Below are positions 37,832 to 42,463 of a stretch of DNA of 44,357 nt, piece after piece; position 1 is the stretch's first letter; each line of letters begins with the position of its first letter. Below the pieces are notes generated by a model. It did no database searches. It was not told the DNA's origin and saw only the letters and a program-made list of their open reading frames with translations. The stretch is from a virus. Location of the stretch: IMG/VR virus record IMGVR_UViG_3300029915_000054, positions 1-44,357 of that record; one strand, written 5' to 3'. A program made the position numbers and the translations under genes.

Positions 37832-38900
37832 ACTCGCACCATCTAGCGCGGCTCGCCGTGTCTCTTGCCCCGGTTCACGCGCCCTTGAGGCGCGTTATCC
37901 TGAAAAGGTAGAATCCCCGTCCGCTCGTGAAGGCCATGCCGCGCATTGGGTAGCGCAACAGTATCTATTATGTAACTACGCTATCCCCGCAATCGCCCCT
38001 AACGGCGAGCCAATAACCGATGAAATGTTAGACGGAGCGGATTTATATGAACATGAAATCAAATGGAACAACAAAGACGCAGCCGCCACACTACATATCG
38101 AAGAGAGAACGGATATATCTATTATCCACCCTGATTGTTGGGGTACTCCTGACTGTTGGTTTATCGTTGATAACCACCTTCATATTTTTGATTATAAGTT
38201 TGGTCATGGCTTTGTGGAAGTCTTTGAAAACTGGCAGCTGCTGGAATATGCTGCGGGCGTATCTCAACAGGTTACGCTAACAAAAATCACAATGACGATT
38301 ATCCAGCCGCGCTGTTACACCAAAGAGGGTCCAATACGCTCTTGGATAATCGATGCCGCAGATTTATTGGGTTACATGGATAAATTGCGTAATGCCGAAG
38401 CCAGAGCGTCCGAACCCGAGGCGATTTGCACGCCTAACCCTGAGTGTAAGAATTGTTTAGGTCGTCATGCGTGTACCGCTTTACAAAATACTGCTGCTAA
38501 ATTTGCCGACCTTTCGAGCGAAAATCTATCGTATGAATTGGACTCGCGCCAGACCGCATGGGAATTAAAATACTTGCGTCATGCTGCGTCCATGATTGAC
38601 GCGAGAATGACCGGGCTTGAAGAGCAGGCAAAATCTATGATTATGCGGGGCGAATCAGTGCCAGGGTTTAAATTAGAACCCGGGCAAGGCCGAGACCATT
38701 GGAATGCGGGTGCAAACGAAATTATTACTCTGGGCATTATGATGGAATTAGACCTTGCGAAACCGCCGCAAGTTATCACCCCCGCACAAGCTAAAAAATT
38801 AGGTTTGCCGGATGATATCATATCCACCTATTCGCAGAGAATACCGGGTAAACTTAAATTAATTGAAGATAACAACGCAGCGAAGGTATTTAGAAAATGA
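37818..38900 (+). CDS. DUF2800 nuclease (Cas4/RecB-like), 360 aa
   Basis: The ATG at 37818 with GAGGGGG upstream is chosen over the TTG at 37803. The start SAARRVSCPGSRALE, then SAREGHAAHWVA, WGTPDCWFI, HIFDYKFG (about 118-125) and the cysteine cluster CTPNPECKNC with CLGRHAC (about 205-225) match DUF2800. These are PD-(D/E)XK exonucleases with an iron-sulphur or zinc cluster, here probably for recombination or replication. It overlaps the next gene by four bases. Confidence 0.85.
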   Translation: MLHAKLAPSSAARRVSCPGSRALEARYPEKVESPSAREGHAAHWVAQQYLLCNYAIPAIAPNGEPITDEMLDGADLYEHEIKWNNKDAAATLHIEERTDISIIHPDCWGTPDCWFIVDNHLHIFDYKFGHGFVEVFENWQLLEYAAGVSQQVTLTKITMTIIQPRCYTKEGPIRSWIIDAADLLGYMDKLRNAEARASEPEAICTPNPECKNCLGRHACTALQNTAAKFADLSSENLSYELDSRQTAWELKYLRHAASMIDARMTGLEEQAKSMIMRGESVPGFKLEPGQGRDHWNAGANEIITLGIMMELDLAKPPQVITPAQAKKLGLPDDIISTYSQRIPGKLKLIEDNNAAKVFRK

Positions 38901-39379
38901 GTTATGAAAATATGTATTTGCAGCTCACGGGGAAAGTTAGCCAAAATAATTTTATAGACGTTACCATCCGAGAAAATCCGGGTTGTGAATACCATTTGGT
39001 TGATATTTTTTCTCTATCCGCTCATATGTGGGGATACCCTAAATCCAAAGAGATAACGCAATCCTCAACCGTTTGCCAGTCTAGGACTTTCAACGATAAA
39101 GCACTTAAAGACTTCGAAAAAGATTTAATACATATGATTCGAAAAGTTAGAGCGGCTAGAAAAGATAAGAAATACGACCGAGGTTATAAAATGACCGATA
39201 TGTTTAAGGTTAGGGAAGAACCCATACCCGATTTAAAAAATTGTATTGAGTGCAAGGGGGCTATTGTTCAAGATATCTTCCAACGACCCAAGGGGAAACA
39301 GGGCGCGGGAGGTGGGAGACTGCTAGAGGCTAGAGCGTGTGTACCGTGTAAAATAATTTATGAGGTACTGTGTGATTGA
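38897..39379 (+). CDS. Hypothetical protein with C-terminal zinc ribbon, 160 aa
   Basis: The ATG overlaps the DUF2800 stop. Residues 1-110 are mixed and charged; the C-terminal 50 residues have CIEC (about 115-118) and CVPC (about 149-152), a likely zinc-binding pair. Position between a recombination nuclease and the SSB suggests a DNA-related function. No family recognised. Confidence 0.6.
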   Translation: MSYENMYLQLTGKVSQNNFIDVTIRENPGCEYHLVDIFSLSAHMWGYPKSKEITQSSTVCQSRTFNDKALKDFEKDLIHMIRKVRAARKDKKYDRGYKMTDMFKVREEPIPDLKNCIECKGAIVQDIFQRPKGKQGAGGGRLLEARACVPCKIIYEVLCD

Positions 39380-39572
39380 AATTAACGCCCGCCAGATTGG
39401 AGGATTAATCGTAGTTGTGGGCGATTACATAAAGGATTTACAAGAGAAACATAATACCATGGGTTTAACCGTAATAGAGGACGCGAAGCTACACCGAGCG
39501 CATAAACTCATGAAAGAGATAAACGATTTGCAACCCAAGAGGATAATTGTTGACACTACAGTCAACAAGTAA
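39372..39572 (+). CDS. Hypothetical protein, 66 aa, operator-encoded tail (GTG start)
   Basis: GTG at 39372, six bases after GAGG, is preferred over ATG at 39360. A long helix spans the second half (AKLHRAHKLMKEINDL). The last residues IIVDTTVNK come from promoter copy 3, as in the unrelated protein at 2125-2490. No family recognised. Confidence 0.5.
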   Translation: MIEINARQIGGLIVVVGDYIKDLQEKHNTMGLTVIEDAKLHRAHKLMKEINDLQPKRIIVDTTVNK

Positions 39573-39587
39573 TATACTCTCTTTATC
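39543..39587 (+). promoter_or_regulatory. Promoter with overlapping operator, copy 3
   Basis: Perfect dyad TTGTTGAC-N6-GTCAACAA at 39547-39568, -35 TTGACA 39550-39555, 17-base spacer, -10 TATACT 39573-39578. The 45-base cassette equals copies 1 and 2 apart from the dyad centre (ACTACA). The downstream CTCTCTTT/AAAGAGAG dyad is broken here. It reads into the gene at 39606. Confidence 0.85.
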
Positions 39588-39605
39588 AACTAAGAGGGTA
39601 AATAA

Positions 39606-39869
39606 ATGAAATATAAGTTAGGGCAAAAATATTATTTGATTAACATGGGTTGGATTGAAGAAATACTATTTCACTCGGTTTTAATCGCTTTAGACGGTGC
39701 GGGCGTTTATTCTAAAGAGCATTATTATGATTCTTCAGGTGTAGAGATAGTAACGGTTCACAATAAGGATAAACAGGATATTTCGATACCCATATTTAAC
39801 ACCGAATCGAAAGCAATAGACTATCAAATTAAAGTATTGAAAGCCTTAAAACATAAAGAGGCCGTATGA
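39606..39869 (+). CDS. Hypothetical protein, 87 aa
   Basis: AGAGGG precedes the ATG at 39606. The protein starts KYKLGQKYYLI, a pattern seen in small beta-barrel domains, and ends in a basic helix. It is the first gene of a third regulated unit. No family recognised. Overlaps the next gene by four bases. Confidence 0.6.
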   Translation: MKYKLGQKYYLINMGWIEEILFHSVLIALDGAGVYSKEHYYDSSGVEIVTVHNKDKQDISIPIFNTESKAIDYQIKVLKALKHKEAV

Positions 39870-40048
39870 AAATTGAAAAAATATATTTAGGTGACGGCGC
39901 ATATGCCGAATACGATGGATGGAATATCATTGTGACTACGAGCAACGGCATACATACTACAAATGAAATTTGTTTTGAACCCGAAGTTATAGACAAATTA
40001 TTCAAGTATGTTTTAGAAATCAGAAAAGCTAGGGAGGATACTAAATGA
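39866..40048 (+). CDS. Conserved small phage protein, 60 aa
   Basis: The sequence IEKIYLGDGAYAEYDGWNIIV then GIHTTNEI (read in parts) is a pattern I recognise from small conserved proteins of many phages, with a LGDG--AE-DG core, but no function is known. It overlaps both neighbours by four bases. Confidence 0.65.
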   Translation: MKIEKIYLGDGAYAEYDGWNIIVTTSNGIHTTNEICFEPEVIDKLFKYVLEIRKAREDTK

Positions 40049-40437
40049 AAAAACTATTAACAGGAGTACTTATGGCCGGCTCAGTAATTGCTAACGCAGG
40101 AACACCCGTGTTTTATTTCCAAGCGTTGACACAAACCGATATCACTATTGCTAAAGGTGAAATTAAAAAGGTAGTTTACAAGGTGCGTAATCAGTCTACT
40201 AAACCGCATAATATCGCAATGCGAAAAATGGTCGGAGTTAATGAAGTCGGCGGGGCTGGCTCTTGTATCGATAAAGGACGACTTGAGGCCGGACAATCTT
40301 GTTTTCTGAATCTCGAAGTTAATGGGGATGAATTCATAGGGCTTGAAGACAGTTCGCCCCGTGTGTGCGCAGACGGTACGGTTTTGATGTGCTACACGCC
40401 GAGCGAAGCCCAATTGCTGAAAGTCACGAAAGTATAA
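40045..40437 (+). CDS. Secreted cysteine-containing Ig-like protein, 130 aa
   Basis: A clear signal peptide (KKLLTGVLMAGSVIANAG) is followed by an all-beta domain. Four cysteines (about 74, 86, 108, 116) lie in GSCIDKGRLEAGQSC and VCADGTVLMCYTPS, a pattern I know from extracellular repeats of Legionella and Coxiella proteins (LAPGQSC ... GP-VC ... CYQPS). Two disulphides in the periplasm are likely. It sits among early small genes and could change the cell surface, for example in superinfection exclusion. Both host link and role are inference. Confidence 0.65.
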   Translation: MKKLLTGVLMAGSVIANAGTPVFYFQALTQTDITIAKGEIKKVVYKVRNQSTKPHNIAMRKMVGVNEVGGAGSCIDKGRLEAGQSCFLNLEVNGDEFIGLEDSSPRVCADGTVLMCYTPSEAQLLKVTKV

Positions 40438-40452
40438 TATAGGGATTTGAGA

Positions 40453-40941
40453 ATGAATGATTTTAAACAAGGGGATAGGGCTTGGTGGCTATCTGGCGTT
40501 AACATGGAAAATTGTGTAGGTATGGGCGTTCAAATGGTGGATATCGTAAAGATAGACGCGCCAAACTCCTTTACAATTCGCAACGATGTAACCGAGTTTA
40601 AGAATGTCGAACCCTCTACGCTGTACAGGGATAAAAAAGTAGCCTTGGCTGCCGCTATAAAAAAGTTTAGCGAAGAGCCGCCACCCCCGCCGAAGCCGAA
40701 GACAGACACAATTAACCATCCGCCCCACTACAATTCGGGCAAAGCTAAGTGTGAATGTGGACGCCGTATAGAGTGCATAGATGTTACAAGAGAAATGAAT
40801 TTTCCGTTAGGAAATGCCATTAAATATATTTGGCGCTCCGAGCATAAGAACGGGGTAGAGGATATTAAAAAAGCCATATGGTACTTAAATGACTATCTCA
40901 GAAATAAAAACGAAGGACAAAAGGGGAACGCCCCGAAATGA
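40453..40941 (+). CDS. DUF3310 protein, 162 aa
   Basis: The ATG at 40453 is preferred over TTG at 40447. Residues about 90-152 match DUF3310: INHPPHYNSG, ECIDVTREMNFPLGNAIKYI and EDIKKAIWYLNDYL. An N-terminal domain (GDRAWWLSG, then DKKVALAAAIKK) and a Pro-rich linker precede it. The C-terminal tail differs from the usual one, and a second copy of the end (KAIWYLNDYL) lies downstream of the HNH gene at 41202. The function of DUF3310 is not established. Confidence 0.8.
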   Translation: MNDFKQGDRAWWLSGVNMENCVGMGVQMVDIVKIDAPNSFTIRNDVTEFKNVEPSTLYRDKKVALAAAIKKFSEEPPPPPKPKTDTINHPPHYNSGKAKCECGRRIECIDVTREMNFPLGNAIKYIWRSEHKNGVEDIKKAIWYLNDYLRNKNEGQKGNAPK

Positions 40942-41230
40942 GTTTGAAAGGTTTCTCAACCACCATAGGCTTAATGCGTATTATCAAGGCTGTTGCATTT
41001 GTGGATGGAAAAGGTCGGTAATCGATTATTGCCATATCATACCCCATGCAAAGGGAGGTGATTATTCAATTAACAATTTAGTTCCTTTATGCCCGAATCA
41101 TCATAGGCTGTTGGATAGAGAGTTGTTAGAGGAATACGAAAGCGAAGCGATTACAAGATTTATCTATAACATTTATGATTGTTTAGAAAAGGGTTTAATG
41201 TATGAATTCTTGGACAATAAAACGTCATAA
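40889..41230 (+). CDS. HNH endonuclease, 113 aa, inserted at DUF3310 3' end
   Basis: The HNH core is CCICGW (35-40), CHIIPHAKGGDYSINNLVPLC (about 48-68, read in parts) and NHHRLLD (70-76). The only in-frame start is ATG at 40889, inside DUF3310, 53 bases before its stop; there is no strong ribosome binding site. DUF3310-like coding sequence follows at 41230. The layout is that of a free-standing homing endonuclease invading a conserved gene end. Confidence 0.85.
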   Translation: MTISEIKTKDKRGTPRNEFERFLNHHRLNAYYQGCCICGWKRSVIDYCHIIPHAKGGDYSINNLVPLCPNHHRLLDRELLEEYESEAITRFIYNIYDCLEKGLMYEFLDNKTS

Positions 41231-41303
41231 AGCTATATGGTATCTGAATGATTACCTACAAAAGTTATCCACAGATACTGTGGAAAAGTCTGTGGGCAAA
41301 TAG
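41202..41303 (+). pseudogene. Remnant of second DUF3310 C-terminus, 33 aa
   Basis: A short frame reads RHKAIWYLNDYLQKLSTDT, matching KKAIWYLNDYL of DUF3310 upstream, then ends at TAG 41301-41303. The DNA of the two copies is similar but has synonymous changes. It overlaps the end of the HNH gene and begins ATG at 41202 after AAGGG, so it could still be translated. It looks like the original or a donor end of DUF3310 left behind by the HNH insertion. Confidence 0.7.
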
Positions 41304-41335
41304 TTGTTGATACTGGTGTCAATAAGGGGTATAAT
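41304..41335 (+). promoter_or_regulatory. Promoter with operator, copy 4 (degenerate)
   Basis: TTGTTGAT-N6-GTCAATAA (41304-41325) is the same dyad with two changes. The -35 box TTGATA (41307-41312) and -10 TATAAT (41330-41335) are 17 bases apart. The next gene's ATG touches the -10 box, and its AAGGGG ribosome binding site lies inside the spacer, so transcripts from this promoter would lack both. Confidence 0.75.
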
Positions 41336-41584
41336 ATGTTTGTTAAATGTAAGATAAAAACGATATTAGCGAAGCCGGTAGAATTTTTAATGAATGTTGA
41401 AACTATCGTAACGCTTGAGAAATTGGTGGATGAACACAAACTTAACCTTCACTTAAACACCGGTGATTTTGAGTTCTGGTTTGACTCCGAAGAAATCAAA
41501 GACGAAGTTTATAACGCATTCACCGAGTTGTTAGCAACTAAGCAAACCGTGATATCGGACAATATAAGTTTATTAACATTATAA
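41336..41584 (+). CDS. Hypothetical protein, 82 aa
   Basis: ATG at 41336 has AAGGGG (41324-41329) upstream. If only transcripts from the adjacent promoter exist, translation would have to start at the internal ATG at 41390 (64 aa). The protein is mixed alpha/beta and acidic in the middle (DFEFWFDSEEIKDEV). It precedes the SSB gene. No family recognised. Confidence 0.55.
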   Translation: MFVKCKIKTILAKPVEFLMNVETIVTLEKLVDEHKLNLHLNTGDFEFWFDSEEIKDEVYNAFTELLATKQTVISDNISLLTL

Positions 41585-41593
41585 GGATAATTA

Positions 41594-42463
41594 ATGAGTA
41601 CGAAAATCGAGTTATTAACACCGGTAGGCCGTCTTGTGCAAGGTAGCCTATACAACGGAGCCACCACAGACGCAGAAAACCGCCCACTGGTTTATAAAAC
41701 TGGTCAAAACATGGGGCAACCTCGCGTAAACTATTGGTTTAGTGTGGCCGTTCCAAAAGGTGCTGAACAACATTGGAATCAAACAGAGTGGGGCGTTAAA
41801 ATTTGGAACGTAGGTCAAGCTGGTTTCCCTCAAGGTCAAGCCAATAGCCGCGCTTTCGCTTGGAAAATTATAGACGGCGATAGCATGGAGCCAAACACAC
41901 AAGGTAATAAGCCTTGCGATAATGAAGGGTTCCCCGGTAACTGGATTCTCAAATTCTCTGGTTCGTTCGCGCCCTCTTTGTTCAATGAAAACGGTACGCT
42001 CGCATTGACTGAGCCTAACGCAATTCAACTAGGCGACTATATACAAGTTTACGGAACTGTTGAGGATAACAAGTCCACGCAGCAACCCGGCGTTTATTTA
42101 AACCATTCTATGATTGCCCGCTCTGGCTACGGTCAAAGGATTATAGCCGGTGCCGACCCGAAGTCCGTAGGGTTTGGAGCTTCTCCTTTACCTGCGGGAG
42201 CGAGTACAACCCCTTTGGCTTCCTTCGCTCCACCTCCTGCAACTGCTGTACCGCCTGTGATGGCTCCGGCTGCGGTAGCTGCTCCTATTGCCCCCGCACC
42301 TGTGGCCGTACCCCCTGCATACCCGCAGATATTAACGCCTCCAGCTCCACCAGTCGCAGCTAAGGTTTTAACCGAGAAAGCGAATGGCGCAACCTATGAG
42401 CAATTAATCGCCGTTGGTTGGACGGATGACCTTTTAGTTCAAAACGGTATGATGGTACGATGA
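41594..42463 (+). CDS. ssDNA-binding protein (DUF2815), 289 aa
   Basis: The first 190 residues match DUF2815: LLTPVGRLVQGSLYNG, RVNYWFSVAVPKG, FAWKIIDGDSMEPN, LGDYIQVYGTVEDN and GVYLNHSMIAR, an OB-fold-type ssDNA-binding domain. A Pro/Ala/Val-rich linker (about 195-250) joins a small C-terminal piece (YEQLIAVGWTDDLLVQNG). AAGGA precedes the ATG. It would coat single strands in replication. Confidence 0.85.
   Translation: MSTKIELLTPVGRLVQGSLYNGATTDAENRPLVYKTGQNMGQPRVNYWFSVAVPKGAEQHWNQTEWGVKIWNVGQAGFPQGQANSRAFAWKIIDGDSMEPNTQGNKPCDNEGFPGNWILKFSGSFAPSLFNENGTLALTEPNAIQLGDYIQVYGTVEDNKSTQQPGVYLNHSMIARSGYGQRIIAGADPKSVGFGASPLPAGASTTPLASFAPPPATAVPPVMAPAAVAAPIAPAPVAVPPAYPQILTPPAPPVAAKVLTEKANGATYEQLIAVGWTDDLLVQNGMMVR

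Follow-up and report, generated by a model that had tools for sequence, protein, structure and literature searches.

The DNA analysed here is a metagenomic virus contig of 44,357 bases, which we call the window, and the part of interest holds a DUF3310 gene, an overlapping HNH endonuclease ORF and, behind the latter, a second version of the DUF3310 end; the features are collected in the table below. The DUF3310 protein belongs to its family by a Pfam profile match that covers the domain in full (PF11753, residues 87–146, profile positions 1–60 of 60, E 3e-13), and the domain is already complete 5' of the insert. The N-terminal extension of the protein is absent from its nearest relatives (L002–L007); it is apparently common to the DUF3310 proteins of some Escherichia, Acinetobacter and Moraxella phages.

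Features of the DUF3310–HNH locus, with positions in the window
Feature	Position	Strand	Basis or remark
DUF3310 gene, 162 aa	40453..40941	+	ORF and profile match
DUF3310 N-terminal extension, ~82 aa	40453-40698	+	without Pfam match
PF11753 core of DUF3310	40711-40890	+	
Upstream KAIWYLNDYL copy, DUF3310 domain end	40870..40899	+	
HNH endonuclease ORF, 113 aa	40889..41230	+	Pfam and PHROG matches, motif alignment
New DUF3310 tail RNKNEGQKGNAPK and stop	40900..40941	+	in the other frame, HNH residues ~5 to 18
Displaced native DUF3310 end, KAIWYLNDYLQKLSTDTVEKSVGK stop	41229..41303	+	matches the L002 end KAIWYLNDYIKKLSTEAVEKSVNKSC
Inverted consensus DnaA-box pair, TTATCCACA-N5-TGTGGAAAA	41265..41287	.	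inside the native end
Promoter-like site, TTGATA, 17-18 bp, TATAAT	41304..41340	+	ahead of the next gene; same in L002/L120
Empty allele (L002-type sequence, outside the window)	around GATATTAAGAAAGCTATATGGTAC		

The two genes share the last 53 nt of DUF3310 in different frames. As the initial annotation had it, the HNH gene begins inside the DUF3310 end: its ATG, at 40889, lies within the KAIWYLNDYL codons and directly 3' of an in-frame TAA. Its stop, TAA at 41228–41230, straddles the other junction, the T coming from the insert and the AA being the first native bases, and the HNH gene therefore owes its start, and its stop in part, to DUF3310 sequence. The DUF3310 frame, for its part, runs 13 codons past LNDYL over bases that also code for the start of HNH. 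Because PHROG families align with the HNH protein from residues 3–16 onwards, inside the overlap, these codons are most simply HNH coding sequence, and the upstream tail is probably no true DUF3310 tail but the beginning of the HNH ORF translated in a different frame. A hairpin, GGGGAACGCCCC at 40923–40940, lies just 5' of a further ATG at 40938, which overlaps the DUF3310 stop and is out of frame with the HNH ORF; this element may be left over from an earlier state or may serve to control the translation of HNH.

The encoded protein is a member of the HNH endonuclease superfamily, scoring above the cutoffs of both PF13391 (33.2 bits against 21, E 4.8e-8) and PF01844 (24.8 bits against 21.4), and in the motif alignment its zinc-binding Cys pairs and His-Asn-His residues are intact. 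Its closest solved relatives are the HNH domains of IscB proteins (E ~1e-4), and no DNA-binding module was recognised in the short ORF of 113 aa. A search with exact 8-residue patterns returned no IMG/VR relatives; against the named phages, the DNA of the window had no match and the HNH protein only short HNH-core matches, of ~50%, in Lak and crAss-like phages. Neither a close relative of the HNH gene nor a donor allele was thus found in the IMG/VR and named-phage searches.

Past the HNH stop, KAIWYLNDYL is encoded again, at 41229–41258, followed by a different tail, QKLSTDTVEKSVGK, and a stop at 41303; this second version sits in a 33-aa ORF at 41202–41303 whose start is within HNH. The initial annotation had noticed both the repeat and its changed tail, as well as differences falling mainly at third positions, and the count agrees: 7 of 30 nt differ between the copies, all seven synonymously, and the longest exact run common to both is ~8 bp. 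The score of one copy against the other, 59, is higher than that of any of 870 mismatched comparisons, in which upstream and downstream flanks of different HNH genes were paired (maximum 53).

The two ends can be told apart with the help of a relative, IMG/VR contig 3300019872_000005, which the DUF3310 protein search returned as L002 and the search with the SSB protein as L120. It has no HNH gene and one uninterrupted DUF3310 gene ending in KAIWYLNDYIKKLSTEAVEKSVNKSC, followed on the right by the same genes as in the window, a small ORF, an SSB-like gene (85% identical at the protein level) and a phosphatase. By blastn, window positions 40714–40895 align with L120 3480–3661 (72.5%) and positions 41229–42454 with L120 3636–4861 (73.5%); on L120, these stretches abut and overlap, 26 bp of the empty allele being matched on both sides of an insert of ~333 bp. 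With this alignment and a score that tops all 870 comparisons, chance similarity of the two ends is excluded. The HNH gene is thus present in one genome and absent from the other at an otherwise collinear site, as is typical of homing genes, and, since the single end of the relative matches the downstream tail, the downstream end is the native one, as the initial annotation had predicted for relatives lacking HNH. A displaced native end that lies downstream and matches a relative without the insert is also one mark of an end-replacing endonuclease ORF of the Allomyces/Glomus type. Another relative without HNH, L003/L121, has a related tail, its DUF3310 ending in ELSTETVSN, and none of the HNH-less relatives examined carries both ends, the pattern named at the outset as contrary to an insertion with end replacement. 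The known alleles are one occupied and one close empty one. The genome collection searched with SSB yielded distant relatives only. To the left of the DUF3310 domain, the stretch from the DUF2800 gene onwards (38900–40714) consists of small unrelated ORFs and is wholly different in L120; it is a hypervariable region with its right edge at the domain.

The native end contains more than codons. The inverted DnaA-box pair is the sole such pair in the window, and it is conserved in L120 (3672–3694), with one box at the same place in L121 (3901); over the region holding the boxes, AAGTTATCCACAGA..CTGTGGAAAAGTCTGT, the stranded end and the native end of L002 are identical at 30 of 32 bases. To judge from these motifs, the pair is a possible origin or DnaA-responsive control site. 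The promoter-like site ahead of the next gene is likewise uninterrupted by the insertion. As the DnaA boxes and the promoter of the next gene are conserved, the stranded end may persist as DNA and not as protein, kept for its cis element, or it may simply be recent. The promoter-like site itself is one of several occurrences of an element, TTGTTGACACTACNGTCAACAAGTAATATACTC at 725, 2465, 36965, 39547 and 41304, whose −35 box is enclosed in an inverted repeat. L120 and L123 have the element too, and it resembles a shared early promoter to which an operator belongs.

We consider it fairly probable that a free-standing HNH gene invaded the 3' end of DUF3310 by end-replacement insertion, an account in which the activity of the endonuclease, its homing, the donor lineage, the repair route and the position of the cut are what we infer. 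The recipient allele would have been broken at or just before the KAIWYLNDYL codons, near DIK|KAIW, and its left side repaired from a related, HNH-bearing DUF3310 allele, which would have supplied a synonymously different KAIWYLNDYL together with the overlapping HNH ORF; the right side would have been joined to the recipient's own end. DUF3310 as it stands has its whole domain and terminates inside HNH coding sequence in the other frame, and the native end stays behind the insert along with the promoter of the next gene. Since native DNA is kept from 41229 onwards, we predict that the cut falls at the base corresponding to 41229 or just upstream of it; in the occupied allele, neither copy still has the native site whole over this position. 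In their divergence from L120 the two flanks are equal, which we count in favour of end replacement. Against it we count the searches that returned neither a donor allele nor a close HNH relative, the shortness of the HNH ORF and its want of a recognised DNA-binding module, the single occupied and single close empty allele, the small size of the duplicated piece, and the 29 IMG/VR relatives of the HNH gene, none of which has the same arrangement. The initial annotation had proposed that the invader brought its own DUF3310 end, keeping the target functional. The synonymous divergence fits two ends from two functional genes, but what is restored is the conserved domain end only, its last 10–12 residues, and the codons beyond it are those of HNH in another frame.

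The origin of the two ends has to be read from few bases. With L002 as the outgroup, our reading of the alignment assigns four of the seven changes to the upstream copy and the other three to the stranded one, each of them synonymous; under random substitution, three out of three synonymous changes have P ~0.01–0.02 and seven out of seven P < 3e-5. A stranded copy that had drifted should hold amino-acid changes, yet it has none, and two functional genes are therefore favoured: two ends recently joined from such genes would explain the 30 bases of evidence better than would a target duplication that has drifted. Among the relatives examined, the upstream copy is nearest to L002 (6 of 30 differences, the next having 8), and any donor would therefore have been a phage of the same clade. 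The duplicated piece, of 26–30 bp, is too short to trace its ancestry, and the tree of the 65-aa domain is weak and does not separate a native from a donor core.

Such a duplication is the stronger rival nevertheless. In this view the HNH ORF was inserted within the lineage of the window itself, duplicating ~26–30 bp of the target; the copies would have diverged later, and the new DUF3310 tail would be an accidental read-through into HNH. In its favour, exactly one stretch of the empty allele, of ~26 bp, has a counterpart on each side of the insert, and the pairwise distances among the upstream copy, the downstream copy and L002 are much alike (7, 6 and 5 differences over 30 nt). Set against it are the three apparently derived changes of the stranded copy, all of them synonymous, and a frame that is open up to the stop. 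As the P value is modest and part of the stranded copy may be under constraint from the cis element, we regard a local duplication as unlikely but worth keeping in mind. We give less credence still to an exchange of modules without homing, in which ordinary phage recombination at the domain end replaced the resident gene with a foreign DUF3310–HNH block, left the resident's last 25 codons in place and gave HNH no role. The N-terminal extension that the nearest relatives lack, and sequence unrelated to L120 from 40714 leftwards to ~38900, would suit such an exchange, whereas a domain core and a native right flank that lie equally near L002 (72.5% versus 73.5%), the core also sharing RSEHKNG and DIKKAIWYLNDY with it, would not; as the similarity of the core would also fit a donor of the same clade, the exchange is only partly distinct from end replacement. 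That the contig is a chimera assembled from two co-occurring strains, one with HNH and one without, is very improbable: the contig is metagenomic and its two ends resemble two haplotypes, but a longest exact shared run of ~8 bp is far too short for the usual assembly join, and both flanks are collinear with L120. A group I or II intron restoring DUF3310 by splicing was rejected, there being no Rfam intron match and an unremarkable folding z-score of −1.06, as was a group I intron carrying HNH, which would not duplicate coding sequence.

Among 29 IMG/VR relatives of the window's HNH gene, no second case of a neighbour's end repeated behind HNH was found, and L226, flagged as one by a score of 42, proved to be two unrelated ORFs. 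In L161 (~4358) and L157 (~4699), other, different HNH ORFs follow DUF3310 at distances of ~145 and ~485 nt, each as a separate gene with no repeated end; HNH genes may visit the neighbourhood of DUF3310 repeatedly.

The closest parallels come from fungal mitochondria. In atp6 of Allomyces macrogynus and in atp6, atp9, cox2 and nad3 of Glomus sp., endonuclease ORFs bring a foreign C-terminus that is fused to the resident gene, and the native C-terminus is displaced behind the endonuclease ORF; in Glomus, the displaced copy is the one that agrees with an insert-free relative and the differences are largely synonymous, the divergence in the fungal cases as a whole being largely or wholly so (PMC3630166). 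The window has the same order of core, putatively foreign C-terminus, endonuclease ORF and displaced native C-terminus, its native copy is likewise recognised through an insert-free relative, the divergence is again synonymous, and, as in Glomus atp6, the endonuclease ORF overlaps the inserted C-terminus (PMC3630166). Unlike these mobile ORFs, it comes from a phage and has an HNH enzyme in place of the LAGLIDADG enzyme reported for Glomus atp6 (PMC3630166); it restores 10–12 residues only, its endonuclease ORF is in a different frame, and it is known here from sequence alone. Homing genes of the T4 type overlap the ORF upstream of them or interrupt a gene, which then yields two polypeptides (PMC2988022). 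The mob and seg genes of T4-like phages, including mobE in nrdA of Aeh1 and mobA, resemble the window in being phage genes inserted into or overlapping host genes, with HNH nucleases in the case of Mob, and in having a start that overlaps the upstream ORF with no obvious ribosome site, but their insertions split a protein in two or sit between genes, whereas DUF3310 in the window stays whole, with its domain end present twice (PMC2988022). Nuclease genes also mark exchange boundaries in phages (PMC10448857), and the window shares with these and with the Skunavirus HNHEs a variable nuclease gene at a recombination boundary near replication genes; duplicated gene ends of the present type are not described in the keyword-matched passages of these two sources (PMC10448857, PMC12724721). 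In the papers searched, which leave out most of the subscription literature, no gene end both displaced and duplicated came up for a phage; the arrangement is one documented in fungal mitochondria, represented here by a single occupied allele.

More generally, we suggest, as a tentative idea, that end replacement, as seen in fungal mitochondria, can also serve homing endonucleases of phages to spread, and that an end of the target gene, synonymously recoded, travels within the HNH cassette in an overlapping frame, which would keep the target whole and abolish the cassette's own cut site, while insertion upstream of the cis element, the DnaA-box pair and the promoter, would leave the next operon undisturbed. 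If true, phages would share a lifestyle known from fungal mitochondria, whereby a selfish nuclease gene settles in an active gene and leaves it working, because it supplies the end that it displaces. It would also give a rule for recognition: the C-terminal code of a gene, repeated behind a nuclease gene with synonymous differences, would reveal target genes and approximate cut sites from sequence, and end replacement would be a route to chimeric gene ends.
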